Of a stretch of DNA of 64,000 nucleotides, positions 5,243 to 22,578 are shown piece by piece (positions within the stretch are counted from its first letter, which is position 1; every line of letters starts with the position of its first letter). Origin of the DNA: Halovenus carboxidivorans (GTDB taxonomy: Archaea; Halobacteriota; Halobacteria; Halobacteriales; Haloarculaceae); assembly GCF_009831575.1 (NCBI RefSeq), contig NZ_WUUT01000005.1:248001-312000 (forward strand), in the 5' to 3' direction. The notes beneath the pieces were generated by a model. It did not search any database. It was not told the DNA's origin and saw nothing but the letters and a program-made list of their open reading frames with translations. The position numbers were made by a program, and so were the translations under genes.

Positions 5243-5834
5243 GCGTCGCTTGCAAATCTCGAAGTCGCCGCTCCAGTGCTTCGATTCCCTCGCCGGTCAC
5301 AGCACTGGTCAACACGACCGGGCACTCCGGATCGATCTCCCGGAGATCCGCGCGCATCCGGTCGGGATCGACACCGACAGCCTCCGCGATGTCGATCTTG
5401 TTGATGACGACGAGGTCACAGGCCTGAAACAGCAGCGGATGTTTGCGGATCACGTCCTCGCCCTCGGTGACGCTGACAACGACGACCCGCACCGTCGCGC
5501 CGAGCGGGAAATCCGCCGGACAGACCATGTTCCCGACGTTCTCGACGTACAGCGTATCGAGCCGACTGAGTTCGAACGCGCCGAGGGCGTCACCGACCCG
5601 CTCGGGATCGAGGTGACAGTCCTTCCCGGTCGTCACGTCTGCGACCGGGATACCGAGGTCTCGGTACCGGCGGGCGTCGTCGTCGCCGGCGACATCACCG
5701 GCGATAACGCCGACCCGCTCGCTGGCAGGAGAACGCGAGACCAACTGCTCGATCAGCGCCGTCTTCCCACTACCGGTCGCGCCGAGCATCTCGACGGCGT
5801 CGATATCGTTATCGTGTGTGAGCCGCTCGTGCAC
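5226..5834 (-). CDS. hypB: HypB nickel-insertion GTPase (N-terminus disturbed)
   Basis: HypB is a GTPase that, with HypA, delivers nickel to the hydrogenase large subunit. The Walker A loop (MLGATGSGKTALIEQL), the ENVGNMVCPADF metal/switch segment and the NKID guanine motif (VVINKIDIAEAVGVD) are all present. The only start codon in this frame is the GTG at 5834. The same frame upstream (about 5835-5903) still reads as clear HypB N-terminus, with a GHDHTDER histidine-rich patch and a helix of alternating acidic and basic residues, yet no ATG, GTG or TTG occurs before the end of hypA. An ATG at 6001 that overlaps the hypA stop (ATGA) is in another frame. A frameshift in the 5' part is therefore likely, either a sequence error or real damage. 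It overlaps hypF by 17 nt. Confidence 0.9.
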   Translation of the reverse strand: MHERLTHDNDIDAVEMLGATGSGKTALIEQLVSRSPASERVGVIAGDVAGDDDARRYRDLGIPVADVTTGKDCHLDPERVGDALGAFELSRLDTLYVENVGNMVCPADFPLGATVRVVVVSVTEGEDVIRKHPLLFQACDLVVINKIDIAEAVGVDPDRMRADLREIDPECPVVLTSAVTGEGIEALERRLRDLQATHAHEH

Positions 5835-5997
5835 ACGTGTAGCTTCCCGTTCGATCGCTTCCAGTACGTCTGCCGTTCTCTCGTCGGTGTGGTCGTGGCC
5901 GAACCGATGGCAGCGGACGAGTCTACGAGACTCCCGAGGCCGGGGAACGGGTCGGTTCCAGTGCGGTACAGTCCGTCGCGTCGATTTCGATGTGTGG

Positions 5998-6393
5998 TCA
6001 TGTATGCGTCGAGATGGTCTCCGAATCAGCCGGATCCGGAACCTCGATACTTCTGAGCCGACACTCCCGGCCGGCGGTCAGCGACACGCGTTCACCACAG
6101 CTCGGACACCGGACTGACGGCGCGCGCTGTCCGGCGTCCGACAACGTCGTCAGCGTGCCGCACCAGCCGCAGTCACACGTCCCGCGGGCTCGTACACGCT
6201 CGAACTCGACAGTCGCCGCCGCCGCTTTCGTTCCCTCGGCGACGGCCTCCAGACAGAACCGTAGCTGTCGGGGGGCGATGTGTGTCGCCGTCCCGACTTC
6301 GACAGTTAGCGTCTCGATCTCGGCGGCGTCGTACTCGTCGGCAACACACAGCGCCCGATCGAGGAGCCGCTGTGCGAGTGTGAGTTCGTGCAT
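5998..6393 (-). CDS. hypA: HypA nickel/zinc chaperone for hydrogenase
   Basis: HypA binds nickel and partners HypB in loading the [NiFe] site. The N-terminal MHELTLAQRLLDRAL carries the invariant Met-His-Glu nickel-binding start, and the zinc site is formed by CDCGWCG and CPSCGE about residues 74-97. At 131 residues it is slightly longer than the usual 113-120 because of a C-terminal tail. The ATG at 6393 is fixed by the MHE motif. The gene sits 1 nt from the end of hypE and its TGA overlaps an out-of-frame ATG at the presumed hypB start. Confidence 0.96.
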   Translation of the reverse strand: MHELTLAQRLLDRALCVADEYDAAEIETLTVEVGTATHIAPRQLRFCLEAVAEGTKAAAATVEFERVRARGTCDCGWCGTLTTLSDAGQRAPSVRCPSCGERVSLTAGRECRLRSIEVPDPADSETISTHT

Positions 6394-6394
6394 G

Positions 6395-7429
6395 TCAGCA
6401 GATCCGCGGTAGCTGTTGGCCGCTCGGCTCTGTCAGGTAGCGCTGCCCGATGCCCGTATCGACGACGACCCGACCGGTGTGGTCATCGACAGCGTCGCCG
6501 ATCAGCGCCGCTTGTTCGCCACCGGGGGTCGCCCGCACGGCATCGAGCACCGACTCGGCGTCCTCAGGTGCGACGCCGAGAACCATCCGTCCCTCACAGG
6601 CCACGGTCTTCGGGTCGAGTCCGAGGACCGCTGCTGCGCTATCGGTGGCGCCGCTGACAGGCACCGCCCGGTCCTCAGCGACGAGACCGACGCCGCTGCG
6701 CGCTGCGAGTTCAGTGAGGGCGGTAGCAAGCCCGCCGCGGGTCGGATCCGTCGCGGCCGTGACGGTGCCCGCCTCGCGGGCGGCCGCAACCAGGTGGTTG
6801 ACCGGCGCGACATCGCTGCGGAGGTCCGTCTCGAAGTCGAATCCCTCACGTGCAGCCAGCAGCGCGATGCCGTGCTGACCGACGGGGCCGGTCACCAACA
6901 GTCGGTCGCCAGGTGACAGGCCGTCGCTCGTGAGCTGTTCACCGCGGGGTATCCGGCCGATACCGGTGGTGTTGAGGACGATCCCGTCGAGGTCGTCGGG
7001 CGGCAGGACCTTCGTGTCGCCGGTCTGGACGCTGACGCCACACTCCTCGGCGGTCTCGGCCATCGAATCGAGGATCGTTTCGATCCGGTCGGTGGGCGTC
7101 CCCGCCTCGACCACCAGTCCACAGGTCAGCGTCAGGGGCTCGACGGCCCCCATCGCCGCGAGGTCGTTGACCGTTCCCGCGACACCGAGACGCCCCAGGT
7201 CGCCGCCCGGAAACACCGGCGGATCGACCACGTGGCTGTCGGTGGTCACGACCAGCGAGCGGTCGCCGTCCGGCAGCACCGCGCCGTCGTCAAGCGCCGG
7301 CAGGCCGACGCCGTCGGCAATCGGATCACCGAGCCGCTCCAGTACCGTCTCGGAGAGAAACGAGCGCATCTCCGCCCTCCCCGCGCCGTGTGCGGCGGTC
7401 AGCGTCTCGGCTTCGTCGTCCGCGCTCAT
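6395..7429 (-). CDS. hypE: HypE hydrogenase maturation protein
   Basis: HypE receives the carbamoyl group from HypF on its C-terminal cysteine and dehydrates it to thiocyanate, the CN donor for the active-site iron. The 344-residue protein ends in PRIC, the required terminal cysteine. It has the AIR synthase/PurM-type ATP-binding features: DDGAVLPDG, VVTTDSHVVDPPVFPGGDLG, VNDLAAMGAVEP, QTGDTKVLP and TDPTRGGLATALTELA. The ATG at 7429 overlaps the hypD stop by 4 nt (ATGA), which fixes the start; the longer open frame upstream is a shadow of hypD. Confidence 0.97.
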   Translation of the reverse strand: MSADDEAETLTAAHGAGRAEMRSFLSETVLERLGDPIADGVGLPALDDGAVLPDGDRSLVVTTDSHVVDPPVFPGGDLGRLGVAGTVNDLAAMGAVEPLTLTCGLVVEAGTPTDRIETILDSMAETAEECGVSVQTGDTKVLPPDDLDGIVLNTTGIGRIPRGEQLTSDGLSPGDRLLVTGPVGQHGIALLAAREGFDFETDLRSDVAPVNHLVAAAREAGTVTAATDPTRGGLATALTELAARSGVGLVAEDRAVPVSGATDSAAAVLGLDPKTVACEGRMVLGVAPEDAESVLDAVRATPGGEQAALIGDAVDDHTGRVVVDTGIGQRYLTEPSGQQLPRIC

Positions 7430-8538
7430 TGTCGGACCTCCCCGAACGTCTGTCTGATCCGGCACGGACCCTCGTCGCTGACCATGCACGCGCCCACGGG
7501 GCTGGCCGGCGTACACTCCTCGCCGAACAGCGGACACTCCCGCGGCGCCGCGTGGCCCGCCATAATATCCCCACAGATACACTCGGTCGTCTCACTGTCG
7601 CGGTCGACTTCGATATCGAACCGCTCCCGGGCGTCGTAGGCCGCGTACTCGGGACGGATCGCGAGCGTCGCATCGGGGACCGCCGCGATGCCGCGCCACT
7701 CGCCCTCGACGCGCTCGAAGACATCCCAGAGGGCCGTCTGCGCCGCCTGATTGCCCGTAGCGCTCACGCAGCGGGGGTAAGCGTTGACGACTGCCGGCTC
7801 GTCGTCGGCAATCGCTTCGACCAACTCGACGAGCGCGTACAACACGTCGAGCGGTTCGAACCCACCGACGACGACCGGCAGGTCGTGGGTCCCAGCGATG
7901 GGCTCGAAGACCTCCGTCCCGGTGATCGTCGCCGCGTTCCCCGCGGCGAGAAAGCCGTCGACACGGGTGTTCGGGTGCGCGGCGACGACATCCATGGCTG
8001 GCGGGACGTATTTGTGCGCCGACAGCACGGAGAAGTTGGCCGGCGGATCGTTTCGGAGGACACTCGCGGTCGGTGCCGCGGTCGTCTCGAATCCGACGCC
8101 GAAGAAGACGACCTCCTGGTCGGTTTCGGCCGCGAGCGACACGGCGTCGGCTGCGCTGTAGACGACTTCGACATCGCCACCGGCATCGCGAACCGCAGCG
8201 AGGCTTCGGTCGCCGCCGGGCACGTCGAGCATGTCTCCGTACGTGGCGACGAGTTTGCCGGACTCCGCCAGTGTGACCGCCTCGTCGACCTCCGCGCTGT
8301 CGGTCACACAGACCGGACAGCCCGGACCCATTGCGACGGTCAAACCGTCGGGCAGGATGCTCCGGAGGCCGAACTCGGCGATCGTCTGCTCGTGCGTGCC
8401 ACAGACGTGAACGATCCGGATCGAATCGTCTGCTCGGTCGACGAGTGACTCCAACCGCGCTCGTAACGCGTCGGCGCGTTCCGGGTCACGGAAGGTCAGC
8501 TCGTCGGCCCCGGAGTCGGCAGGACCCCCGGCGGTCAC
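7426..8538 (-). CDS. hypD: HypD hydrogenase maturation iron-sulfur protein
   Basis: HypD carries a [4Fe-4S] cluster and, with HypC, forms the scaffold where the Fe(CN)2CO unit is assembled. The 370 residues show the family motifs in order: VHVCGTHEQTI, GPGCPVCVT, the GVGFETTAAPTA block, LSAHKYVPPAM and the C-terminal cysteine cluster ECICGDIMAG, CPLFGEECTP, GACMVSDEGPCR. Length is normal. Both ends overlap their neighbours by 4 nt, consistent with translational coupling within the operon. Confidence 0.98.
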   Translation of the reverse strand: MTAGGPADSGADELTFRDPERADALRARLESLVDRADDSIRIVHVCGTHEQTIAEFGLRSILPDGLTVAMGPGCPVCVTDSAEVDEAVTLAESGKLVATYGDMLDVPGGDRSLAAVRDAGGDVEVVYSAADAVSLAAETDQEVVFFGVGFETTAAPTASVLRNDPPANFSVLSAHKYVPPAMDVVAAHPNTRVDGFLAAGNAATITGTEVFEPIAGTHDLPVVVGGFEPLDVLYALVELVEAIADDEPAVVNAYPRCVSATGNQAAQTALWDVFERVEGEWRGIAAVPDATLAIRPEYAAYDARERFDIEVDRDSETTECICGDIMAGHAAPRECPLFGEECTPASPVGACMVSDEGPCRIRQTFGEVRQ

Positions 8539-8828
8539 GGCTGTTCACCTCCATGCGCCGGCTCGGCGGCTGCCGCGGGCTCTGTTCGCCGGTCCGCGAG
8601 GCTAGTGCGGTCGTCCTCGATTGCGGCCTCGTACAGTTCGACGGTCCGTTCGACCTCGTGCTCCGGGATCTTGCGAATCGCGAACCCGGCGTGTGTGAGG
8701 ACGTAATCGCCGGGCGAGATCTGGTCGCCGACGATGTCGACCCGAACCCACTTCTCCGCGCCGCCGAAATCGACCAGCGCCTCCGTGCCGTCGATCTCGT
8801 CGATTTCGCCGGGGATACCGAGACACAT
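8535..8828 (-). CDS. hypC: HypC/HybG/HupF-type hydrogenase chaperone
   Basis: HypC escorts the iron precursor between HypD and the large subunit, using its N-terminal Cys2. The protein begins MCLGIPGEIDEIDG, and the OB-fold core continues with GDYVLTHAGFAIRKIPEHE, typical for the family. At 97 residues it has about 20 extra C-terminal residues rich in Ala, Glu and Pro that are not part of the usual fold. The ATG at 8828 overlaps the preceding protease stop (ATGA), and the hypC stop overlaps hypD. Confidence 0.97.
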   Translation of the reverse strand: MCLGIPGEIDEIDGTEALVDFGGAEKWVRVDIVGDQISPGDYVLTHAGFAIRKIPEHEVERTVELYEAAIEDDRTSLADRRTEPAAAAEPAHGGEQP

Positions 8829-9457
8829 CAGTCCTCACCTCCGTCCGTCGAGTCGTGGCTCTGTGACGGTCGTTGCGAGAGGAGCCGCTCGGGTCGGAGC
8901 CGCCCTCTGACGCTGTGCCCCTGTTGTTCGTGTTCGTCGACTGCGTCCGGATCGATCTCCGTCTCGCAGTCCTCGCAGTACCACGTTGCGTCCATAGCGT
9001 GATTACCTAATTTCGAGCGTTTTCGTGCCGCTTCCGCCCGGACAACAGCCGCAACCGCCGGCAGCGCCCGCCGAAGCGCCGTACTCAGGCCGATCCGGGG
9101 TTCGACCGTCGCCGGCACCGCGCCGACGACGACAATCTGGGATGGGAGGTCGTAGACACCGCGACAGCCCCGTATCGCCTCGGTAACGGTGAAATCGTGC
9201 ATCGTGACCTCTCCGAATCCCTCACCGCCCGGCTCGAAGCGGTGTATCGTACCGGGGTCGCCCGGAGCGTCGACCGCGTCGGCGACGACCGCCCGGTCGG
9301 CCCCGTCGATGGCCTCCAGGGCGAGCATTGCCGTCGTGCCGGCGAACTGTGCGCGGCCAATCGGCGCTGGTTCTGTGTCGATGCGGTCGACGAGCGCGCG
9401 CCCGAGGCCGTCGTCACCCATCGTCGGATTTCCGACGCCGACGACTGCGACCGTCAT
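8828..9457 (-). CDS. [NiFe] hydrogenase maturation protease fused to a CxxC mini-domain
   Basis: The first ~155 residues are a HyaD/HybD/HycI-type endopeptidase, which trims the C-terminus of the large subunit once nickel is in place: MTVAVVGVGNPTMGDDGLG holds the nickel-sensing acidic residue after GNxxxGDDG, and a conserved MHDFTVTEA segment follows. The frame then runs without a stop into ~55 residues starting MDATWYCEDCETEIDPDA, with a CxxC pair and two later histidines (DEHEQQGH) that look like a zinc ribbon, and an Arg/Ser-rich tail. An internal ATG at 8997 could start a separate small protein. The ATG at 9457 overlaps the large-subunit stop. The fusion is unusual for the family as I know it. 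Confidence 0.9.
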   Translation of the reverse strand: MTVAVVGVGNPTMGDDGLGRALVDRIDTEPAPIGRAQFAGTTAMLALEAIDGADRAVVADAVDAPGDPGTIHRFEPGGEGFGEVTMHDFTVTEAIRGCRGVYDLPSQIVVVGAVPATVEPRIGLSTALRRALPAVAAVVRAEAARKRSKLGNHAMDATWYCEDCETEIDPDAVDEHEQQGHSVRGRLRPERLLSQRPSQSHDSTDGGED

Positions 9458-10974
9458 TGTTCGCCCCCGGGCGCGTGCGGTTCGATCGTCGTCTCGAAGT
9501 TGTGATCCGGGCCCTGAACGTGGACGCCACAGCCCAGGCACGGGTCGAACGACCGGACGGTGCGCATCACGTCGATCGGATTGCTAACGTCCGGGACGGC
9601 GATTCCCTCGACTGCCTCCTCGAAGATGCTCGGTTCGTCGTCCGCATCCCGGGGGCCGAGATTCCAGGTCGTCGGCGTGATGATCTGGTATCGACTCACC
9701 TCGCCGTCCTCGATATCGACCCAGTGTGAGAGCGCGCCCCGGGAGGCACCCCAGAAGCCGACGCCGGAGCCGGAGAAGTCGTCGGTCCACTCGCCGGTCA
9801 TCGGCTCGTCGACATCGAGTTCGTCGAGCCACGATTCGACCAGTCCCGTGACGATCAGAAGCTCCTGAACGCGGGCCGCGAGGCGGTTGAACGTGCTGGA
9901 CCGGTTCGCGTCGCCGCCCGGCGACGCACGAATGTCACCGGGGTCACGGTCCGCAGCGATCAGCCGCGCCAGCGGCCCCGTCTCCATCGATTGGCCCTCG
10001 AAGCGCGGAGCCTTGCCCCAGGAGTAGGCGTCCGTCTTCTCGGGCGCCGGCTCCGGCGGAGGGGCCGTCGTCGCCGGGCCGCCGGAGTCGCCCGTGTACC
10101 ACGCGTGTGAGACATCCTCGGTGATTCCCCCGATCAACTCCTCGCGGTCCGGGCGGCGGAGGCGGCCGTCGGCGTAGATGCCGCGGGGAAGCACCAGCGA
10201 CCGGTCGCCGGTTCCGTAGAACATGCCGTTCGCGTAAAATCGGCCGGGTCCGACTCCGAAGCCGGTTGCACCCGCCTCCTCCGCCGCGACCAGCACCGAA
10301 CAGAGATCGTACAGGCCGGGGGCGTGGTCCGGAACTGGGCCGCGGTCGCGCGCGGTCGACAGCACCGCCTCTAACGCGTCGGTCGGACCGAGCCAGTCGC
10401 GGAATGCGGCCACGGTCTCGCGGACTTCCTCGACGGTTTCGGGGTCTGGATCGGCCGTCACACCGCCCGGCGCGTAGGTGAGCGGGTGCGGCGCTCTGCC
10501 GCCGAAGGCCGAGAACGCCTGGAGGAGTTCGCGCTGGCGTCGGAGCGCCGCCCGGTAGCCCGCGCCGTCGACCGGGTCGAGTCGGTCGAAGCCGGTGTCG
10601 GCGACGGCCTCGCTGTAATCCGGACCGGCCAGCGTGAACAGGTGGATCGTGTGGTTCCAGAGGAGGAACATCCCTTCCATAATGTCCCTGAGCAGGCGTC
10701 CGTGCAGCGGGACCGAGTCGAACATGCCCGCCCGCCGGGCGGCATCCTCGATTGCGAGAATCGACGCCTGTCGGTGACAGGTGAAACAGACGCCACAGAC
10801 CATCTGCGTGACCTGTGGGGCGTCCGAGGGCGGGCGGCCGAGGACGATGCTCTCGATTCCCCGAAACATGTTCATCTCGCTTTCGGCGCGAACGACCTCG
10901 CCATCGCTGACCGACAACGTGGTGCTGTGGTGGCCCTCGATCCGCGTGGTCGGGTCGATCTCTATCTCCGGCAC
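9454..10974 (-). CDS. [NiFe] hydrogenase large (catalytic) subunit
   Basis: The large subunit holds the Ni-Fe(CN)2CO site that splits or makes H2. Its 506 residues contain the L0 motif DPTTRIEGHH, the L1 signature RGIE-x15-QMVCGVCFTCH, TTWNLGPRD with the second-sphere arginine, and the L2 motif FDPCLGCGVH near the C-terminus. All four nickel cysteines are present. After the L2 His there are about 21 residues that the maturation protease next door should remove. Oddity: the arginine normally just before the L1 CGxC (R-x-C) is Met (Q-M-V-C). It overlaps the small-subunit gene by 13 nt and the protease gene by 4 nt. It is clearly an uptake-type relative, but I cannot fix the subgroup. Confidence 0.96.
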   Translation of the reverse strand: MPEIEIDPTTRIEGHHSTTLSVSDGEVVRAESEMNMFRGIESIVLGRPPSDAPQVTQMVCGVCFTCHRQASILAIEDAARRAGMFDSVPLHGRLLRDIMEGMFLLWNHTIHLFTLAGPDYSEAVADTGFDRLDPVDGAGYRAALRRQRELLQAFSAFGGRAPHPLTYAPGGVTADPDPETVEEVRETVAAFRDWLGPTDALEAVLSTARDRGPVPDHAPGLYDLCSVLVAAEEAGATGFGVGPGRFYANGMFYGTGDRSLVLPRGIYADGRLRRPDREELIGGITEDVSHAWYTGDSGGPATTAPPPEPAPEKTDAYSWGKAPRFEGQSMETGPLARLIAADRDPGDIRASPGGDANRSSTFNRLAARVQELLIVTGLVESWLDELDVDEPMTGEWTDDFSGSGVGFWGASRGALSHWVDIEDGEVSRYQIITPTTWNLGPRDADDEPSIFEEAVEGIAVPDVSNPIDVMRTVRSFDPCLGCGVHVQGPDHNFETTIEPHAPGGEQ

Positions 10975-12164
10975 GCCCGCTCACCCCCGCCGGACTGGTC
11001 GCCGCAGTAGTTGTCGTACAGCCAGGCGAGCGCCAGCACGGGCGCGAGCGGGGCAGCGAGGACGGCGAGAACGCCGGCCATCACCATCCCGACGAGGCCC
11101 ATCTGCCGGTCCGTCGACCGGTCGGTTGCTGCCGTGACGGCCTGGCTCGGGTCGGGATCGGTCCCGCGGTCTTCGGGGTTGTTCTCGTAAAACGGTGAGA
11201 AGCGGTCCCAGAACGCGGGTTCGACACAGCCGATACAGGGTGCGCCGGCGTTGCGACAGACCGTCGTGCCGCCGTTGCGTAGCCGCATCGAGCCGTCACA
11301 GTAGGCGTAGACACCGGCACACCCGGCCTCGTAGAGGCAGCCGTCCTCGCCGGGTTCGTCGGCGAACTCGAAACACTCGTACTCCTCGCGGAGTTCGCAG
11401 TCGTCGTGGACCAGCGGCTCGAACAGCGGAAGCGGCCGGTTGAACTCGTCGAGGACAGGCTCGTGGCCGTTGAGCAGCGCCGCGAGCGTTAACACGAGGT
11501 GATCGGCGTACAACGGACAGCCGGAGATGTTGATGACGGGCAGATCCCGACCGGTTCGGAACTCGGGGCCGAAGATCCCGCCGGGTTCGCGGCCGTCGAA
11601 CTGGAGGCCGACCGCGCCGGTGTCTGACTCGCCAACATCGTCGCTGTCGAACCGGCCAGCAGCGGGCAGTCCGCCGAATGCGGCGCAACTTCCCGCTGCA
11701 ATGACGACATCTGCCCGCTCGCCGAGTTCGACGACCCAATCGAGAATCGGCTTCGGATGGCCGTTCTCGTCGACACCCAGCGTCGCGGCACTGGGAATAC
11801 GCGTCGGAATCGCGCCCTCGACGATCAGTATGTCCGGTGTCTCCGGAAGCGCCCCCATCGCGGCTCCGCCGGACGACTCCATCACCGTCGTGTGAAACGA
11901 CATCTGTTCCCGGAGGTCGCCGATAGTTTGCTCGATGCCCGGGTCCTCGCTCTGTAGCAGCGACATCGTACAGCCAGAGCAGCTCTGACCTTGAATCCAC
12001 GCGACCTCGATATCACCGTCGACGCCTCGTTGCAGCGCCGCTTTCAGCTCCTGGAGATGTGTCTCGACGACCGTGCCAGGTTCCGACCGCGCGGCAATAT
12101 CCAGAAAGTCCGGTTGTGCGGGGGCCGATGCAGCGCCTGCCGTCAGTGCGTCTGTTCTCACCAT
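10962..12164 (-). CDS. [NiFe] hydrogenase small subunit, C-terminally membrane-anchored, no Tat signal
   Basis: The small subunit carries the iron-sulfur relay. The proximal cluster ligands are CSGC, the GSCAAFGG Cys and ISGCPLYADH; the medial and distal cysteines/His lie in HDDCELRE, DGCLYEAGCAG and CRNAGAPCIGCVEP. Near the C-terminus (about residues 355-385) is one strongly hydrophobic helix (MVMAGVLAVLAAPLAPVLAL) followed by a Cys-containing tail. There is no RRxFxK twin-arginine signal: the N-terminus is MVRTDALTAGAAS, and upstream in frame a TAA appears after 14 codons. Most membrane-bound uptake hydrogenases have both a Tat signal and this helix, so the enzyme may face the cytoplasm. 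First gene of the operon. Confidence 0.95.
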   Translation of the reverse strand: MVRTDALTAGAASAPAQPDFLDIAARSEPGTVVETHLQELKAALQRGVDGDIEVAWIQGQSCSGCTMSLLQSEDPGIEQTIGDLREQMSFHTTVMESSGGAAMGALPETPDILIVEGAIPTRIPSAATLGVDENGHPKPILDWVVELGERADVVIAAGSCAAFGGLPAAGRFDSDDVGESDTGAVGLQFDGREPGGIFGPEFRTGRDLPVINISGCPLYADHLVLTLAALLNGHEPVLDEFNRPLPLFEPLVHDDCELREEYECFEFADEPGEDGCLYEAGCAGVYAYCDGSMRLRNGGTTVCRNAGAPCIGCVEPAFWDRFSPFYENNPEDRGTDPDPSQAVTAATDRSTDRQMGLVGMVMAGVLAVLAAPLAPVLALAWLYDNYCGDQSGGGERACRR

Positions 12165-12402: not shown

Positions 12403-14517
12403 ATGCCACCCTCGGAAATACAGGAACTCGATTCTCGGACCGTCGAGCGAATCGCGGCCGGCGAGGTCGTCGAACGACCAGCATCCGCGGTCAAGGAGCT
12501 ACTCGAAAACGCCATCGACGCCGACGCCTCCCGCGTGACCGTCGCGGTCGAGAGCGGCGGAACCGAGTCGATCCGGGTCAGCGACGACGGGATCGGCATG
12601 TCCGAACCCGCACTCAAACAGGCGATCAAAGAACACACGACGAGCAAGATCGGGGATATCGAGGATCTGGAGTCCGGTGTCGCCACCCTCGGATTCCGGG
12701 GCGAGGCGCTACACGCGATCGGTGCCGTCTCGCGGATGACGATCACCTCCCGCCCGCGCGGCGGCGGCCGGGGGACAGAACTCGTCGTCGAGGGCGGCGA
12801 CGTGACCTCGGTCGAACCCGCGGGCTGTCCGGAAGGGACGACCGTCGAACTCGAAGATCTCTTCTACAACGTCCCGGCCCGCCGGAAGTACCTCAAGCAG
12901 GAGTCGACGGAGTTCGACCACGTCAATCGGATCGTGACCAACTACGCGCTCGCGAACCCCGACGTGGCGATCACCCTCGAACACGACGGCCGGGAGACCT
13001 TCGCGACCAACGGCACCGGCGACCTGCGGGAAACCGTTCTGTCGGTATACGGCCGTGAGGTCGCGGAGTCGATGATCGAACTCGCGCCGGAAGATGTCGA
13101 CGACGGCCCGCTCGACGGCATCAGCGGACTGGTGAGCCACCCCGAGACCAACCGCGCGAGCCGGGAGTACTGTTCGACGTTCGTCAACGGGCGGTACGTC
13201 ACGGCGAACACCGTCAGAGACGCGGTATTCGAGGCCTACGGCGCACAACTCGCCCCGGACCGGTATCCGTTCGCGGTCGTCTTCCTCGATGTCGATCCCG
13301 CGAACGTCGACGTGAACGTCCACCCCCGGAAACTGGAGGTCCGGTTCGCGGCCGAGGAAGCCGTCAGCGAACAGATCGAATCGGCCGTCGAGAGCGCACT
13401 GCTCCGGGAGGGGTTGCTCCGGAGTAACGCCCCCCGCGGGAAGTCCGCACCCGAGGAGACGACCGTCGAACCGGAGTCGGTCGACAGAGAGCAGGTACGG
13501 ATCGACCGGCAGACAGGAGAGTCAGCGACGGATGCAGACCGTGATCCGCAGGATGGTACGGCTGAGTCGACTCCGGACCAGTCCGACGGGTCAGAGGAAG
13601 TAGCCGCGTCCACGTCAGGATCCGACGGAGCGCCGTCACGAGCCGAGGGGTACCCATCACAGTTCGACGGAGCGCCGTCGCGAAACAGAGCCCACACGAG
13701 CGGTAGCGACACTCCTGACACCGCTGACGCGGATAATCAGGCGTTCGCCGCTGGTCAGTCCGCTGAAACGGACAGTTACCCTCCCGACCCCGAAGGCAGC
13801 ACCACGTCAGATCCGGGTTCGCCTGAGCGTTCGAGCGACCGGAAGTTCACCGGCGGGGCGGAACAGCGCCGCCTCGACACGGATGTCGATCCGACGGCCC
13901 AGGAGTTCGATTCGCTCCCGTCGATGCGCGTACTCGGTCAACTACAGGAGACGTACATCGTCGCCGAAACGGCCGACGGGATGGTGCTGATCGATCAGCA
14001 CGCCGCCGACGAGCGGATCAACTACGAGCGACTCCGCGAGACGCTGGCCGGCGAGGTGACGACGCAGGCGCTCGCCGACCCCGTCGAACTCGAACTGACG
14101 GCGCGAGAGGCGGAACTGTTCAGCGCCCACGAGGAGGCGCTCGCGACCCTCGGCTTCCGGGCCGAACTGACCGACGACCGGACTGTCGAGGTGGCGACCG
14201 TTCCGTCGCTGGTCGCCGAGGCGGCCGATCCGGAACTTCTGCGAGACGTGCTCGGGGAGTTCGTGAGCGGCGAGACGGCAGCGGCGGCGACGGTCGAAGC
14301 GGCGGCGGACGAACTGATCGCCGACCTGGCCTGTTACCCCTCGATCACCGGACACACTTCGCTGACCGACGGCTCGATGATCGATCTGCTCGCCTCGCTG
14401 GACGACTGTGAGAACCCCTACGCCTGTCCGCACGGCCGGCCCGTGATCGTCGAGTTCGACGCCGAGGAGATCGAGGCCCGCTTCGAGCGCGACTACCCCG
14501 GCCACACCGAGTCGTAG
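12403..14517 (+). CDS. mutL: MutL mismatch-repair ATPase/endonuclease
   Basis: MutL couples mismatch recognition by MutS to downstream strand incision. The N-terminal GHKL ATPase is complete: ENAIDADASRV, RVSDDGIGM, LGFRGEALHAI, and the S5 domain with NGRYVTANTVRDAV and DVNVHPRKLEVRF. Residues about 335-495 are a low-complexity acidic Ser/Thr/Pro linker. The C-terminal domain has DQHAADERINYE, matching the DQHA(x)2E(x)4E metal motif of nuclease-type MutL, and CPHGRPVIVEF. It should therefore be a nicking MutL, as expected in organisms without MutH. No mutS is in the window. ATG at 12403; 704 residues. Confidence 0.96.
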   Translation: MPPSEIQELDSRTVERIAAGEVVERPASAVKELLENAIDADASRVTVAVESGGTESIRVSDDGIGMSEPALKQAIKEHTTSKIGDIEDLESGVATLGFRGEALHAIGAVSRMTITSRPRGGGRGTELVVEGGDVTSVEPAGCPEGTTVELEDLFYNVPARRKYLKQESTEFDHVNRIVTNYALANPDVAITLEHDGRETFATNGTGDLRETVLSVYGREVAESMIELAPEDVDDGPLDGISGLVSHPETNRASREYCSTFVNGRYVTANTVRDAVFEAYGAQLAPDRYPFAVVFLDVDPANVDVNVHPRKLEVRFAAEEAVSEQIESAVESALLREGLLRSNAPRGKSAPEETTVEPESVDREQVRIDRQTGESATDADRDPQDGTAESTPDQSDGSEEVAASTSGSDGAPSRAEGYPSQFDGAPSRNRAHTSGSDTPDTADADNQAFAAGQSAETDSYPPDPEGSTTSDPGSPERSSDRKFTGGAEQRRLDTDVDPTAQEFDSLPSMRVLGQLQETYIVAETADGMVLIDQHAADERINYERLRETLAGEVTTQALADPVELELTAREAELFSAHEEALATLGFRAELTDDRTVEVATVPSLVAEAADPELLRDVLGEFVSGETAAAATVEAAADELIADLACYPSITGHTSLTDGSMIDLLASLDDCENPYACPHGRPVIVEFDAEEIEARFERDYPGHTES

Positions 14518-14590
14518 AGCCGGGTAACCGTGGTAATTTATCTGTCCGTGGTATCAACTACCATCAACGGAGTCGTGGCAGGTGGCAGAG

Positions 14591-17032
14591 ATGGACGACC
14601 CGGCACGCTGTCGGCTCTGTAACGAGCCAATCGGCCCGACCGCGACGGACGAGCAGTCGTACTGCTCGCCTGGCTGTCGGCAGGTGGATCGGACACTCGG
14701 GGCGGGCGGGTCGACCGACCAGTCGACGGGAGCCACGGGGGAGGACGAGCAAACCGGAGCCGAACAGGTGTATCTCCACATCGACGGGATGCACTGTGCC
14801 ACCTGCGAGGCGTTTCTCGAACGAAGAGCGACGAACCGCGAGGGCGTGTTCGACGCCGCCGCGAGTTACGTCACCGAGACGATCAGAATCGAGTACGATC
14901 CCGAGCAGATCACCGTCGACGAACTCGAAGACGCCCTGACGACGGTCGGCTACAGCGTCGTCCCGCGAGAGAGTCTCGTGACCGTCGCCGACGTACACGA
15001 GCGCCGCTGGGACGACCGCCAACTGGACGACATGCTCGGCTTCAGGTACGCGGCGGGCGTGCTCTTCGGCCTCTTTATGATGCTCCCGTATATCACGGTC
15101 GTCTACCCCGTCCACCTCATGGACCTGCTTGGAACGGGCGATCTCGCCTTCTTCTCGGGCGGGCAGGGGCCTGGAGACGCGCTGATGGTGCTCCCGATTT
15201 TCATGATCATCACCGGTGTCGTCCTCTTTTTCACCGGGCTGCCGCTGTTGCGCGGGGCCTACGTCAGCCTCGTCATGCGTCAGCCGAACTTGGACCTGCT
15301 GGTCGCGGTGACGATCACGAGCGCGTACGTCTACGGGACGGTCGCCTTCCTCACGAGCGACCTGAACATCTACTTCGATCTGACGATTCTCATCGCGGCG
15401 GTGGTGGTCACGACAATCTACTACGAATCGCTGACGAAACAGCGCGCCGTCGATCTGTTGACCGAACTCACTGTCTCGCAGGTCACCGAGGCCAACCGCT
15501 ACGAGAGCGACGGGACGACGGAGACGGTCGACATCTCGGAGTTGGAGGCGAACGACCGGGTGCTCGTCAGGGAGGGCGAGCGCGTCCCCGTCGACGGCGT
15601 CCTCGAATCCGGGAGCTGTACCGTCGACGAGGCGGTCGTGACCGGGGAGTCCCTCCCGGTGCGGAAGGAGAGCGGCGACGAGTTGATCGGCGGGTCGATC
15701 GTCACCAGCGACGGGGCGACGATCCGGGTCGGGGATCCGCCGACAAGCAGCCTCGACGCGCTGACGACCTCGGTCTGGGATCTCCAGAGCACCACCCACG
15801 GCATCCAACGGTGGAGTGATCGGCTGGCCGAGCGAGTGATCCCGGGTGTGGTCGCTGTGGCCGTGTGCGCGGCCGCCGCCGGCGTCTGGCTGAACGGACT
15901 CCTGGGCGGCGTCCTGGCGGGGCTCGGCGTGCTGTTCATCGCGAACCCGTGGGGGCTGGGGCTGTCGACGCCGCTTTCGGTCGCGCGGAGCATCGAGGCG
16001 GCGATCAGCCACGGGATCATCGTCTTCGACGAGACGGTCTTCGAGCGACTCCGGGAGACCGACACGGTCGTCTTCGACAAGACAGGGACGCTGACGACCG
16101 GGGAGATGAACATACTGACGACCGACGTGCCCGACCAGGCACTGGCGAAAGCCGCCGAACTCGAACAACACGCCGCACACCCGGCGGGCAAGGCGATCGC
16201 CTCGGCCGTCGAGTTCGGCGCCGAGGCCCGGCCGGACGGGGGAACCGGTCGCGGCGAAACTGTCGACCCGCCGGAGGAGACGACTCCGACGGAGCGCGTC
16301 AGCAACGTCCGGAGCCACGACACCGGTATCGAGGGCGATGTCGAGGGCGAGCGGCTCCTGGTCGGGAACCTCGCGTTGTTCGCCGAGCGGGATTGGGCCG
16401 TCTCCAGAGAGATCGAACGGAAGGCGGTCGGGTACCGAGAGGCCGGGGATCTGCCGGTCGTCATCGGCCGGGAGGGCGAAGCAGAGGGGCTGGTCGTCCT
16501 GGGGGACGACCCCCGCGAAGAGTGGGAGGAGATCCTTCGTCGGCTCGCGGATCGGGAGATCAGGACGGTCGTGTTGACCGGCGACGACGCGTCGGCCGCG
16601 TCGCTGTTCGACGATCACCCCGCGGTCGAACACGTCTTCGCGGGGGTGCCACCGGCCGGGAAGACGGCGACGATCCATCGGCTCCAGCAGGACGGCCACG
16701 TGACGATGGTCGGAGACGGTACGAACGACGGCCCCGCGCTCGCCGCGGCGGATCTGGGCATTTCGCTCGGGGGTGGCACGGCGCTGGCTTCGGAGGCGGC
16801 CGATATCACGGTGCTCGACGACGACCTCTCGAACGTCGAGACGGCTTTCGAGTTGGCCGCCGGTGCGCGTGAACGACTGCGACAGAACACGGCTCTCGCG
16901 CTCGGTTTCAACGCCGTAACGATTCCGCTCGGCCTCGCCGGGTGGCTGAACCCGCTGTTCGTCATGGGCGCGGGCGTGCTGACGATCTGTGCGGTGAGTC
17001 TGAACGCGACGCGACCGTTGATCGGCCCATAA
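14591..17032 (+). CDS. P1B-like heavy-metal ATPase with NPW in place of CPC
   Basis: An 813-residue P-type ATPase of CopA-like layout. It starts with a TRASH/YHS-like zinc ribbon (CRLCNEP...YCSPGC), then an HMA domain with GMHCATC, eight predicted helices, the actuator TGES (VVTGESLPV), the phosphorylation site FDKTGTLT near residue 496, the HP pair (HAAHPAGKAI) and the hinge GDGTNDGPAL. The pump parts are intact. The transmembrane metal site is not: the usual CPC in helix 6 is NPW (ANPWGLGLSTP, near residue 452), and helices 7 and 8 lack the usual copper pattern. Substrate is unknown. A GTG at 14582 is an alternative start. The convergent 872-residue open frame opposite is a shadow. Confidence 0.9.
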   Translation: MDDPARCRLCNEPIGPTATDEQSYCSPGCRQVDRTLGAGGSTDQSTGATGEDEQTGAEQVYLHIDGMHCATCEAFLERRATNREGVFDAAASYVTETIRIEYDPEQITVDELEDALTTVGYSVVPRESLVTVADVHERRWDDRQLDDMLGFRYAAGVLFGLFMMLPYITVVYPVHLMDLLGTGDLAFFSGGQGPGDALMVLPIFMIITGVVLFFTGLPLLRGAYVSLVMRQPNLDLLVAVTITSAYVYGTVAFLTSDLNIYFDLTILIAAVVVTTIYYESLTKQRAVDLLTELTVSQVTEANRYESDGTTETVDISELEANDRVLVREGERVPVDGVLESGSCTVDEAVVTGESLPVRKESGDELIGGSIVTSDGATIRVGDPPTSSLDALTTSVWDLQSTTHGIQRWSDRLAERVIPGVVAVAVCAAAAGVWLNGLLGGVLAGLGVLFIANPWGLGLSTPLSVARSIEAAISHGIIVFDETVFERLRETDTVVFDKTGTLTTGEMNILTTDVPDQALAKAAELEQHAAHPAGKAIASAVEFGAEARPDGGTGRGETVDPPEETTPTERVSNVRSHDTGIEGDVEGERLLVGNLALFAERDWAVSREIERKAVGYREAGDLPVVIGREGEAEGLVVLGDDPREEWEEILRRLADREIRTVVLTGDDASAASLFDDHPAVEHVFAGVPPAGKTATIHRLQQDGHVTMVGDGTNDGPALAAADLGISLGGGTALASEAADITVLDDDLSNVETAFELAAGARERLRQNTALALGFNAVTIPLGLAGWLNPLFVMGAGVLTICAVSLNATRPLIGP

Positions 17033-17070
17033 CGGTTTTGAGGTGGGGACTACAGATGGAATTCCTGTTG

Positions 17071-17078
17071 CTTTATAC
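17071..17078 (+). promoter_or_regulatory. TATA box for GTP cyclohydrolase III
   Basis: CTTTATAC stands out in GC-rich DNA and is centred 26 nt before the GTG at 17101, the spacing expected when transcription starts at the start codon (leaderless). This decides against the upstream in-frame ATG at 17056, which would lie before the box. Confidence 0.65.
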
Positions 17079-17100
17079 GCGTCAGACCCAAGTCTGCGCT

Positions 17101-17886
17101 GTGACGAACGACAACGAGGACGTTCAGCTGTCGCTTGTCCAGCTGGACAACTACGGTCCGTGGACGGTGACGCCGTCGCCACGGCGGGAAACTGATCTGC
17201 AGTCTCTGCAAGCTCACCTGTACGCTGATTTTGCGGACTTCGTGGGCCGCGAAGACGGCTACGCCTTCTTCGATCGGTTCGACAACATCATCGGTGTCAC
17301 GAACGGCATCGACCGGCGAACCCACGAGCGGTTCCAGGAACACGTCCGCAACCGGTATCCGGTGACCGCGAGCATCGGCATCGGTGCGGCGCCGACGCCG
17401 GTCGCGGCGCTGGGCAGGGCCACCGAACAGCTCCAAGACGCCGGCAGCGCTCAGGACCCGAACAGAACCGAGATTCTCGCCGCCGACGGGACGGTCGCGC
17501 CCGGCGAGGGCGAGGTGACGATTGCGCACTTCGACATCGTCGACGTGACCGGCACCTACACGGACAGCGAACACGCCGCGCGAACGACGCTCGACGTGCG
17601 CCGCGCGACCCTCGAACTCGCCGAGTACATGCAGACCGAACACGACAGCATCGCCCGCTTCGTCGGCGGTGACAACATCATCGCAGTCTGCCCACACCTC
17701 TCCGAAGACTGCTTCGACGAGGCCCGAGACGCCGTCCGCGAGCGGGCGGACATCGAGCTACAGGTCGGAGTCGGCCGGGGACTGACCGCGCACGACGCCG
17801 GCTATCGGGCCAAACTCGCTCTGGAGGAGTGTCGGGAGAACGGCCACCGCGTCCACCAGATCACGACCCAGGTCGCGACGGACTGA
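17101..17886 (+). CDS. gch3: GTP cyclohydrolase III (archaeal)
   Basis: Archaeal GTP cyclohydrolase III opens GTP to 2-amino-5-formylamino-6-ribosylamino-4-pyrimidinone phosphate, the entry to riboflavin and deazaflavin (F420) synthesis. The 261-residue protein matches the family from the start: LVQLDNYGPWTVTPSPRRE, the repeated ferredoxin-like/GGDEF-related halves each with a metal-loop segment (FDRFDNIIGVTNG and FVGGDNIIAVCPHL), and SIGIGAAPTPVAAL. The two-fold repeat is visible. GTG at 17101 is preferred over the ATG at 17056 because of the TATA box between them. The gene stands alone. Confidence 0.92.
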   Translation: MTNDNEDVQLSLVQLDNYGPWTVTPSPRRETDLQSLQAHLYADFADFVGREDGYAFFDRFDNIIGVTNGIDRRTHERFQEHVRNRYPVTASIGIGAAPTPVAALGRATEQLQDAGSAQDPNRTEILAADGTVAPGEGEVTIAHFDIVDVTGTYTDSEHAARTTLDVRRATLELAEYMQTEHDSIARFVGGDNIIAVCPHLSEDCFDEARDAVRERADIELQVGVGRGLTAHDAGYRAKLALEECRENGHRVHQITTQVATD

Positions 17887-17957
17887 GGCCGACCCCGCCA
17901 CGGTTGACGGCAGAGCCCATCCGAACCGTTTTGCGCCGCCCGTGCCGAACGGCAGAC

Positions 17958-19178
17958 ATGACAGAGGTTCCACTCGGGGAGAAATCGATTACCGTCGGGT
18001 TACCCTCGTGTGAGGTAACGACGGCCGTCCCCGACGGCGGCGAGTCCGTCGACGTCGAATCGGCCGCGGAGAGGGCCATGCGTGACCCGCTCGGAGATCC
18101 GTTAGCACCGCAGGTCGACGCCGAGGATTCGGTCGCGGTCGTCGTGACCGACGTGACCCGTGCCACACCCGACGATCTGTTGCTCGATAGCCTGCTCGCG
18201 GAGTTGGAAGACGGTGGCGTGGCCCGCGAGCAGGTGACCGTCGTGGTCGGACTGGGCCTGCACCGGCCGCTGACTGGGGAGGAACTCGACGAGGCGCTGG
18301 GTGAGCACGCCGATCTCGCGGTCAACCACGACCCGGACCGGACCCGAACGGTCGGGACCGTCGAGGGCTGTCCGATCGATATCTTCGAGCCAGTCGCGGA
18401 CGCAGACGTGATCTGCTCGACGGGAATGGTCGAACCCCACCAGTACGCCGGCTTCTCCGGCGGGGCGAAGACGGCGGTGATCGGAGCGGGCGGGGAGTCA
18501 CAGATCAGATACAGTCACGGCCCGGAGATGCTCGCGCGGGACGGCGTCCGCCTGGGTCGGATCGACGACAACCCCTTTCGAGGGTTTATCGACGACGCCG
18601 GCGACGCCGTCGGCGTCGACTTCTGTCTCAACGTCACGCACGGCCCGGCGGGGATCACGGGCGTAGCGGCGGGCGACCCGCGGCGGGTCGTCGAATCGCT
18701 CGCTGAGACGGCGAGAACGGCGCTATCGGTCGAACTGACCGAGGAGTACGACGCTGTCGTTGCTGGGATTGGAGCCCCGAAGGACGCGAACCTCTACCAG
18801 GCGAGCCGCGCGGCCACGTACGTCGTCCTCGGGGCGAACGACCCGCTGCGAACCGGCGGACGTGTCGTCCTCCCAGCCCGGCTTCCGGAGGGCGCGGGCG
18901 AGGGTCGCGGCGAACGGCGATTTCACGAGCGGCTCTCGACGGCGGAGAGCGCCGAATCGCTGTACGAGGAGCTTCGGACGGGCTACGAACCCGGGACACA
19001 GCGGGCGTTCGTCCTCGCGCGGGCGCTGCGCGACCACGAGGTGTGGGTGACACACAGCGAGTGCCCGGACCTCGTCGAGGACTGTCTCATGTCCGCCGAG
19101 GCGGAGGTTAGTGACGCAATCGACCCCGGCAGTGACGTGCTCGTGGTGCCGGACGCGCTGAACACGCTGCTCGTCTGA
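17958..19178 (+). CDS. LarA-like (DUF2088) nickel-pincer racemase family protein
   Basis: A 406-residue protein of the LarA family, whose founder is lactate racemase with a nickel-pincer nucleotide cofactor. Diagnostic pieces are VVVTDVTRATPD near the N-terminus, the glycine-rich VGLGLHRPLTGEE with its catalytic-type histidine, GMVEPHQYAGFSGGAKTAVIGAGG, and HGPEML. Homologues act on various 2-hydroxy acids, and many archaeal members have no known substrate. No larB, larC or larE is nearby, so cofactor supply is unexplained within the window. The ATG at 17958 is preceded by a GC-rich 70-nt gap. It ends 2 nt from the convergent ABC permease. Confidence 0.85.
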   Translation: MTEVPLGEKSITVGLPSCEVTTAVPDGGESVDVESAAERAMRDPLGDPLAPQVDAEDSVAVVVTDVTRATPDDLLLDSLLAELEDGGVAREQVTVVVGLGLHRPLTGEELDEALGEHADLAVNHDPDRTRTVGTVEGCPIDIFEPVADADVICSTGMVEPHQYAGFSGGAKTAVIGAGGESQIRYSHGPEMLARDGVRLGRIDDNPFRGFIDDAGDAVGVDFCLNVTHGPAGITGVAAGDPRRVVESLAETARTALSVELTEEYDAVVAGIGAPKDANLYQASRAATYVVLGANDPLRTGGRVVLPARLPEGAGEGRGERRFHERLSTAESAESLYEELRTGYEPGTQRAFVLARALRDHEVWVTHSECPDLVEDCLMSAEAEVSDAIDPGSDVLVVPDALNTLLV

Positions 19179-21864: not shown

Positions 21865-21909
21865 CGTCGAGTCGTGACCCTCAATACGGTGGTCCGACAA
21901 CGCCTAGCT

Positions 21910-22578
21910 ATGATAACAGATGGACCCGACCGTCGGCCGGCGTCCCGACGGCGGTTTCTCGGAGCAGTCGCGGCGGGGACCGTCGCGCTCGCCGGCTGTA
22001 CTGGCAGCTCCGATCCCGGCACCAGCGGGTCGGGCGAGCAACGCGAGACACTGTCCGAACCGCCCGAGTGGCCGCCGGTCCTCGGTGACCCCGAGGCGGC
22101 AGTCACCCTCGAAGTGTTCGAGGATTTCAACTGCCCGCACTGCCAGGAGTACAGCACCGAGCAGTTCCCGGAGGTCAAATCGGAGTATCTCGACCCCGGC
22201 TCGATCCGGTACGAGCACCGAGACCTCCCGTTCATTCACGCGACCTCCTGGCAGGCGGCCAGCGCCGTCAGGGAGGTCTACCGGCTCTACGGCGGGGACG
22301 TGTTCTGGGAGTACAAATCCAAACTGATGGAAAGCGGCAGTCAGATCCGGAACAATGCGCCGGGAATCTTCGGAGAGATCGCGGCCCAGTTGAATCTCGA
22401 TTCGGAGGCCGTCCGGGAGGCGGCCGCGAACCGAGCGCACGACGAGAGAGTCCAAGCAGACCGATCACGGGCTGTCGAGTACGGCGTCGAAGCGACTCCC
22501 GGGTTCGTCGTGGACGGGAGCGTGATGAGTGGGCTCGCTGACGCCCGGAGTACCATCGACAGCAAACTCTCGGAGTAA
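21910..22578 (+). CDS. Tat lipoprotein, DsbA/thioredoxin-fold oxidoreductase
   Basis: A 222-residue exported thiol-disulfide protein. The N-terminus has a twin-arginine signal (SRRRFLGAVAAGTVALAGC) ending in a lipobox Cys, so the folded protein should be lipid-anchored on the outer face of the membrane. The domain is DsbA-like: VTLEVFEDFNCPHCQEYS with the CPHC active site, a helical insert, and the cis-proline loop VEATPGFVVDG. Such haloarchaeal proteins are thought to form or repair disulfides in exported proteins. The ATG at 21910 is fixed by the signal peptide. trm56 starts 3 nt after its stop, probably in the same transcript. Confidence 0.92.
   Translation: MITDGPDRRPASRRRFLGAVAAGTVALAGCTGSSDPGTSGSGEQRETLSEPPEWPPVLGDPEAAVTLEVFEDFNCPHCQEYSTEQFPEVKSEYLDPGSIRYEHRDLPFIHATSWQAASAVREVYRLYGGDVFWEYKSKLMESGSQIRNNAPGIFGEIAAQLNLDSEAVREAAANRAHDERVQADRSRAVEYGVEATPGFVVDGSVMSGLADARSTIDSKLSE

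Follow-up and report, generated by a model that had tools for sequence, protein, structure and literature searches.

Identification of a P1B-type ATPase with an altered membrane motif

The window, i.e. the whole stretch of 64,000 nucleotides from Halovenus carboxidivorans that was analysed here, encodes a P-type ATPase on its forward strand, flanked by genes for MutL and GTP cyclohydrolase III (Table 1). A preliminary description had pointed to the tripeptide NPW in place of the CPC motif of this P1B-type protein, and this reading is confirmed by the translation, which contains NPWGLGLSTP from position 15944 onwards. A DNA pattern specifying P-W, 41 codons and DKTGT matches the window once, and 100 shuffled versions gave no match. 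The HMA and catalytic domains score well over the Pfam cut-offs and both cysteines of the HMA domain are present, in agreement with the intact ATPase core and HMA domain reported earlier. The N-terminal head had been termed TRASH-like: its four cysteines are indeed in place, but the head gives no significant Pfam match, and in a CPC-containing paralogue from the same genome PF12156 is matched below threshold (18.6 bits against a cut-off of 27). An AlphaFold2 model of the protein (mean pLDDT 84.7, pTM 0.84) has the copper pump LpCopA (PDB: 3rfu; Z 28.9, rmsd 4.0, 626 aligned) as its best fold match, tied with 4umv and 4bbj, and P-type ATPases were the only folds among the matches listed. A search of the PDB with one short helix fragment found nothing.

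Table 1. The xPW-type ATPase gene, its motifs and its neighbours in the window; residue numbers are those of the 816-residue protein
Feature	Coordinates	Strand	Basis
mutL, upstream neighbour	12403..14517	+	Order shared with two other Halovenus-group genomes
P1B ATPase of xPW type (816 aa; start codon GTG, codon 4 ATG)	14582..17032	+	Window ORF reading; E1-E2_ATPase, Hydrolase and HMA Pfam hits
Four-Cys N-terminal head (C10, C13, C28, C32)	14609..14677	+	xPW alignment: kept in 79/80, 80/81, 80/80 and 80/82
HMA domain, residues 66-124, CxxC = C72/C75	14777..14953	+	Pfam; alignment
Part of helix MA holding Y156 and F165, both specific to the clade	15047..15076	+	Alignment
L237, at the position of AfCopA M158, the Met of Cu+ entry	15290..15292	+	PDB sequence alignment; clade alignment
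C346, clade-invariant A-domain Cys adjoining TGES (15641-15652)	15617..15619	+	84/84 xPW, 0/41 CPC clade
N455-P456-W457, place of CPC (helix 6, core helix M4)	15944..15952	+	Translation; DNA pattern; alignment
DKTGT phosphorylation motif (D499)	16076..16090	+	84/84 xPW
HP motif of N domain (H533-P534)	16178..16183	+	84/84 xPW
GDGTND hinge motif	16712..16729	+	xPW: first Asp 83/84, second 82/84
F776-N777, place of YN motif	16907..16912	+	xPW clade: Tyr 79/82, Asn 82/82
GTP cyclohydrolase III, downstream neighbour	16942..17886	+	Order shared with two other Halovenus-group genomes
G798...I802, place of MxxSS	16973..16987	+	Met: 0/83 xPW, 39/39 CPC clade
LarA-like protein (lactate racemase N-terminal domain), two genes after the ATPase	17829..19178	+	Order shared with two other Halovenus-group genomes

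Relationship to known P1B ATPases

The window protein has all the hallmarks of the P-type ATPase superfamily (DKTGT, TGES, GDGxND, and the E1-E2 and HAD domains), as well as those of the P1B family, namely the HP motif, the HMA domain and the P1B helix layout, and it scores 395.2 bits with the P1B profile TIGR01525 (cut-off 346.25). Together with two other proteins bearing an equivalent motif (xPW hereafter, where 'x' is variable) it falls below the cut-offs of the copper ATPase profile TIGR01511 (349, 341 and 354 against 397) and the cadmium profile TIGR01512 (287, 294 and 286 against 313.5), whereas the CPC paralogue of the same genome passes both (431 with TIGR01511). Of the marks of P1B-1 copper pumps, the CPC of M4 and the Met of the MxxSS motif of M6 are absent from the window protein and from the xPW clade, and the YN of M5 reads FN in the window. 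The earlier statement that copper-pump residues of helices 7-8 are changed thus holds for the Tyr, the Met and the second Ser, but the Asn is retained. The P1B-2 (ZntA) and P1B-4 ATPases share the superfamily and fold of the xPW proteins (4umv, Z 28.7); neither the CPC in M4 nor a passing TIGR01512 score that mark P1B-2 Zn/Cd pumps is found in the window protein. Likewise, it has neither the SPC of P1B-4 nor the CPH of CopB, the last motif residue being Trp throughout the xPW clade. Both P1B-2 and P1B-4 (SPC) ATPases have Cys at the second motif position, the place that Trp takes in xPW. CopB-type (CPH) Cu+ ATPases often have their genes a few kb from xPW on a shared plasmid island (at 7 of the 17 loci opened) but, unlike the xPW proteins, retain Cys and His in M4 and form a separate clade in the tree. 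The P5A ATPase ATP13A1/Spf1 is a protein dislocase. It is a P-type ATPase with no ion cargo that has kept the catalytic cycle, and offers an analogy only. It is unrelated to xPW at the subfamily level and is a lower-ranking fold match (Z 22.4).

The closest architectural counterparts are the FixI/CcoI (CopA2-type) P1B-1 ATPases, whose layout of an N-terminal Cys head followed by one HMA domain (as given in PMC8475189) is that of the window protein. The two groups are alike in the N-terminal Cys motif, HMA domain, eight helices, fold and catalytic motifs, and the xPW clade branches inside the CPC clade of this layout. They differ in that xPW proteins lack the CPC, the entry Met and the MxxSS Met, have Trp at the second Cys, carry one more invariant Cys, located in the A domain, and mostly have SxxC where CxxC would stand in the HMA domain.

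Published reviews list subgroups P1B-1 to P1B-7, the substrate of P1B-7 being given as unknown (PMC7558416, PMC6884021), and for this helix a rhizobial survey records CPC, CPH and CPD (PMC5552934). No xPW-type motif appears in the portions available of a review of haloarchaeal metal handling (PMC3600143), a Haloferax copper survey (PMC9240420) or a 2023 review of P-type ATPases (PMC10654040), and no paper naming an SPW, CPW or NPW motif in P1B ATPases was found in the open-licence literature. The suggestion that no described subgroup carries such a motif therefore stands for this literature, and xPW may represent a P1B variant not described before in it, with a possible overlap with P1B-6 and P1B-7, for which the comparison covered substrate tables.

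Phyletic distribution and origin of the xPW clade

We aligned 137 P1B sequences, including 84 with the xPW motif, and compared these with 41 sequences of a CPC clade having the same four-Cys head. The Trp is present in all 84, while the first residue may be Ser, Cys, Ala, Thr, Asn or Gly (SPW 56, CPW 20, APW 3, TPW 3, GPW 1, NPW 1). Hence the signature is xPW and not NPW, as had initially been supposed; the only other NPW protein is 78% identical to that of the window and is encoded by a partial gene (L042) below the length cut of the alignment. The closest full-length homologue has CPW (62% identity). Close CPC homologues, as expected of a strain-specific mutation, were not encountered, the nearest CPC protein in the genome being a paralogue with 46% identity. 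In this genome, which is 98% complete, CPC is the motif of all three remaining P1B genes; they code for that paralogue, with the same head, a CopA-like protein with two HMA domains and a ZntA-like protein.

Matches to the DNA pattern occur in 103 of 292 Halobacteria genomes, spanning 31 of 76 genera and 66 of 75 genomes of a single family (f3), but in none of 311 genomes from the rest of the phylum. The reversed pattern, used as a control, had no match in the 292 Halobacteria genomes and matched one genome among the 311 others. In IMG/VR there were 11 matches, all due to chance and none in a P1B frame, and two bacterial homologues (L099 and L100) are both CPC. The conserved subfamily for which a search across archaea had been suggested is thus real. 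Two xPW loci of the same genus (L020 and L025) have one in-frame TAG in the search table; a script reading of the frame met no stop over about 800 aa.

In a FastTree phylogeny the xPW proteins form one clade (support 0.69, or 0.80 with 59 sequences), which is also recovered by IQ-TREE after removal of the two motif columns (35 xPW sequences; SH-aLRT 95.2, ultrafast bootstrap 73) and branches from within CPC sequences, with 100/100 support for the node concerned. Given these values a single origin of xPW is likely, with moderate support, and duplication of a CPC copper pump of FixI/CopA2-like layout provides the best explanation for its emergence. That xPW is a conserved haloarchaeal subfamily derived from a copper pump can be proposed with high confidence. 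Other P1B homologues are present in all 40 xPW genomes tested, and xPW therefore adds to the ordinary pumps instead of replacing them.

Residues lost, retained and gained

The Cu+ path listed for AfCopA comprises M158, E205 and D336 at the entry, C380 and C382, Y682 and N683, and M711, S714 and S715 (PMC9433437). We mapped these positions by means of the CPC paralogues, PDB sequence alignments and this residue list. At the place of M158, Met is found in 0/82 xPW proteins versus 40/41 of the CPC clade, being replaced by Thr in 75/82 and by Leu in the window. The place of C380 is Cys in 20/84 versus 41/41, that of C382 is Trp in all 84 versus Cys in 41/41, and that of S715 retains Ser in 6/83 versus 39/39. 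Met is likewise depleted in helix MA, at residues 164 (3/83 versus 41/41) and 167 (12/83 versus 41/41). With the loss of the M711 equivalent (Table 1), the sulphur ligands of the mapped path are all gone save the first Cys in 20 of the 84 proteins. The acidic residues are largely retained, with Glu at the place of E205 (E282) in 83/84 and Asp at that of D336 (D413) in 68/83, and the catalytic residues, i.e. the phosphorylated Asp, TGE and HP, are present in 84/84.

On the cytosolic side, the first HMA Cys is lost in 65/82 relatives and kept in the window, while the second is kept in 79/82 and in the window. The gene models of four relatives (L104, L201, L202 and L203) have deposited starts about 120 bases inside the conserved frame, which would remove the four-Cys head. 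Besides W457, three residues are newly invariant, or almost so, in the xPW clade: C346 (84/84), where the CPC clade has Ala, Gly or Val; F165 (83/83), where it has mostly Met or Ala; and Y156 (81/82), where it has Tyr in 0/41.

Selection on the membrane helices and catalytic domains

Whole-gene dN/dS values for 14 pairs range between 0.14 and 0.39, and on this account the gene is under purifying selection. We compared conservation by region in 48 non-redundant xPW and 33 CPC sequences. Relative to the P domain, conservation of M3-M6 is 0.705 in xPW (95% bootstrap 0.69-0.72) as against 1.055 in CPC proteins (1.02-1.10), a gap that persists in each of five bins of P-domain identity, whereas the A domain is nearly equal in the two (0.88 versus 0.92). 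Pooled dN/dS values follow the same trend: for 34 xPW pairs M3-M6 has 0.38 versus 0.23 for the P domain, and for 17 CPC pairs 0.27 versus 0.28. These comparisons indicate that constraint on M3-M6 is selectively reduced in xPW with respect to its CPC relatives, and that on the catalytic domains is not. In M3-M6, where polar and aromatic residues as well as Met, Pro and Gly were examined, only R410, W457 and S466 are clade-specific and at least 93% conserved, and according to the clade alignment these helices have gained no conserved carboxylate, His, Cys or Met. As a switch to another metal should leave behind a new conserved set of ligands, this argues by inference, and chiefly against a new metal site of high affinity.

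Conserved gene neighborhoods

The order mutL, xPW, GTP cyclohydrolase III and LarA-like gene is common to three Halovenus-group genomes, namely that of the window, one represented by two contigs (L042 and L154 together), and L152. A DsbA/thioredoxin-like protein is encoded a few genes downstream of the ATPase in the window (21874-22578, +). The window also contains, in a haloarchaeon, a NiFe hydrogenase cluster (2963-12164, -) coding for HypF, a HypB-like protein (CobW/HypB/UreG), HypA, a HypE-like protein (AIRS), HypD, HypC, the HycI protease, and the large and small subunits, and the LarA-like gene also lies near this nickel hydrogenase cluster. A nickel role for the ATPase based on this cluster and LarA was rejected, as the five genes upstream of mutL in L152 include no hydrogenase (by eye) and only the four-gene order itself is shared. 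Among the loci examined, chromosomal xPW genes, that of the window included, have no copper-related neighbors; their recurrent neighbors in other genera (sulfatase, DCC1-like, MFS and LMF1) include no metal genes and provide no functional lead.

The plasmid-borne members present a different picture. We opened 17 annotated loci among the 60 listed (2743 records matched), and xPW was present at all 17. Genes connected with copper proteins, respiratory oxidases or disulfides lie within 8 kb of xPW at 14 of them, in a count confined to xPW loci, and the other three have no such neighbors; several of the islands are near copies, and the 14 are therefore not 14 independent cases. The islands code for plastocyanin-type proteins, multicopper oxidase, the CPH-type ATPase, a CopZ-like HMA protein, CydAB, Cox proteins, DsbB/thioredoxin and SCO/CcdA/TlpA. 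Coupling to cytochrome bd, as a CydDC-like thiol exporter, was considered as a general role but found no support, since cydA is present in 19 of 37 xPW genomes outside family f3 versus 174 of 292 overall, and the window genome lacks it.

Functional implications

P-type ATPases are normally triggered by the binding of their cargo near M4. In AfCopA a Cu+ signal was seen at the Cys whose place is taken by Trp in xPW (PMC9433437), and this Trp may plug or re-pack the metal site at M4. With the soft ligands gone, a bulky Trp in place and the motor intact, the xPW cycle would no longer depend on Cu+ at M4-M6, and these proteins are probably not Cu+ pumps. The alternatives of a different substrate or of a non-transporting ATPase, raised in the preliminary description of what proves to be a genuine non-canonical subgroup, remain the best reading. 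Features outside that description are the loss of the cytosolic entry Met and, in most relatives, of the first HMA Cys, the additional A-domain Cys, and the islands of copper and oxidase genes that surround plasmid members. Of the functions considered we tentatively place a regulatory or accessory ATPase first, followed by a pump whose cargo is not a metal or is bound weakly, with a residual Cu+ pump well behind.

The first of these, to which we give somewhat less than even odds, is that xPW works as a thiol-gated accessory ATPase that carries no metal through the M4-M6 site. The four-Cys head, C75 of the HMA domain and C346 of the A domain are candidates for the gate of the ATP-driven cycle because they have been kept or added by selection on the cytosolic side. 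The TGES loop, which C346 adjoins, drives dephosphorylation. More specifically, and with correspondingly less assurance, the lineage might have given up metal transport and kept the full phosphorylation cycle, with Trp sealing the ion site and these cysteines gating a redox/thiol- or copper-responsive machine that would regulate or aid copper and respiratory-oxidase assembly, or export a low-molecular-weight thiol. The role would then be regulatory or accessory, tied in the plasmid members to the handling of copper and respiratory oxidases. Several observations count against an accessory function: E282, D413 and Y-N are largely kept, and therefore a pathway may survive; M3-M6 is still under purifying selection, perhaps more than a pure sensor would require; in some members the first Cys of CPC persists; the proximity of plasmid xPW genes to copper genes would also suit a copper role; and the chromosomal genes read, with that of the window among them, lack copper neighbors.

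There is perhaps one chance in three that xPW is instead a true pump with a different cargo. This might be a hard or an organic cation, a small thiol or a metal-thiol adduct, none of which would need Cys or Met ligands, and the Trp would line a new site together with the aromatics of helix MA. The retention of the full catalytic cycle, the clade-specific W457, S466, Y156 and F165, the purifying selection on the helices, and the presence of cydAB, Dsb, CcdA/TlpA and cox genes in the vicinity of several plasmid members are all consistent with such a pump, but the extra constraint on M3-M6 has disappeared, these helices offer no new conserved set of charged or metal-binding ligands, and the cytochrome bd link is not general.

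It is rather unlikely that xPW still exports Cu+ through a site that has weakened or moved and is made up of E282, D413 and Y/N, joined in some members by the Cys that is left. The former residues are largely conserved, a CPH pump accompanies xPW at some of the opened plasmid loci and cupredoxin or multicopper oxidase genes at most, and the M158A mutant of AfCopA is stated to retain Cu+-stimulated ATPase activity in vitro (PMC9433437). On the other hand, four of four Met/Cys path positions are changed in the window, three of them are lost clade-wide, and the xPW proteins fail the TIGR01511 cut-off that the CPC paralogue passes. That the gene is a copper pump in decay, a pseudogene or a mutation of one strain, which the reduced helix constraint alone would favor, is highly improbable, as the motif recurs in relatives with an invariant Trp, intact catalytic residues and dN/dS well under 1, and the gene is found in most genomes of family f3.

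The classification of P1B ATPases follows the metal ligands of their membrane helices, and a conserved branch without those ligands breaks this rule, in effect providing a natural experiment on how ATP hydrolysis is coupled to cargo. It also bears on genome annotation, where haloarchaeal 'heavy metal translocating P-type ATPases' are labelled as metal exporters, many of which may not pump metal. A possible partner is encoded at five loci (L043:7810-9021 (-), L046, L103, L104 and L108), where a protein of about 400 aa with no Pfam match lies just downstream of xPW in convergent orientation.
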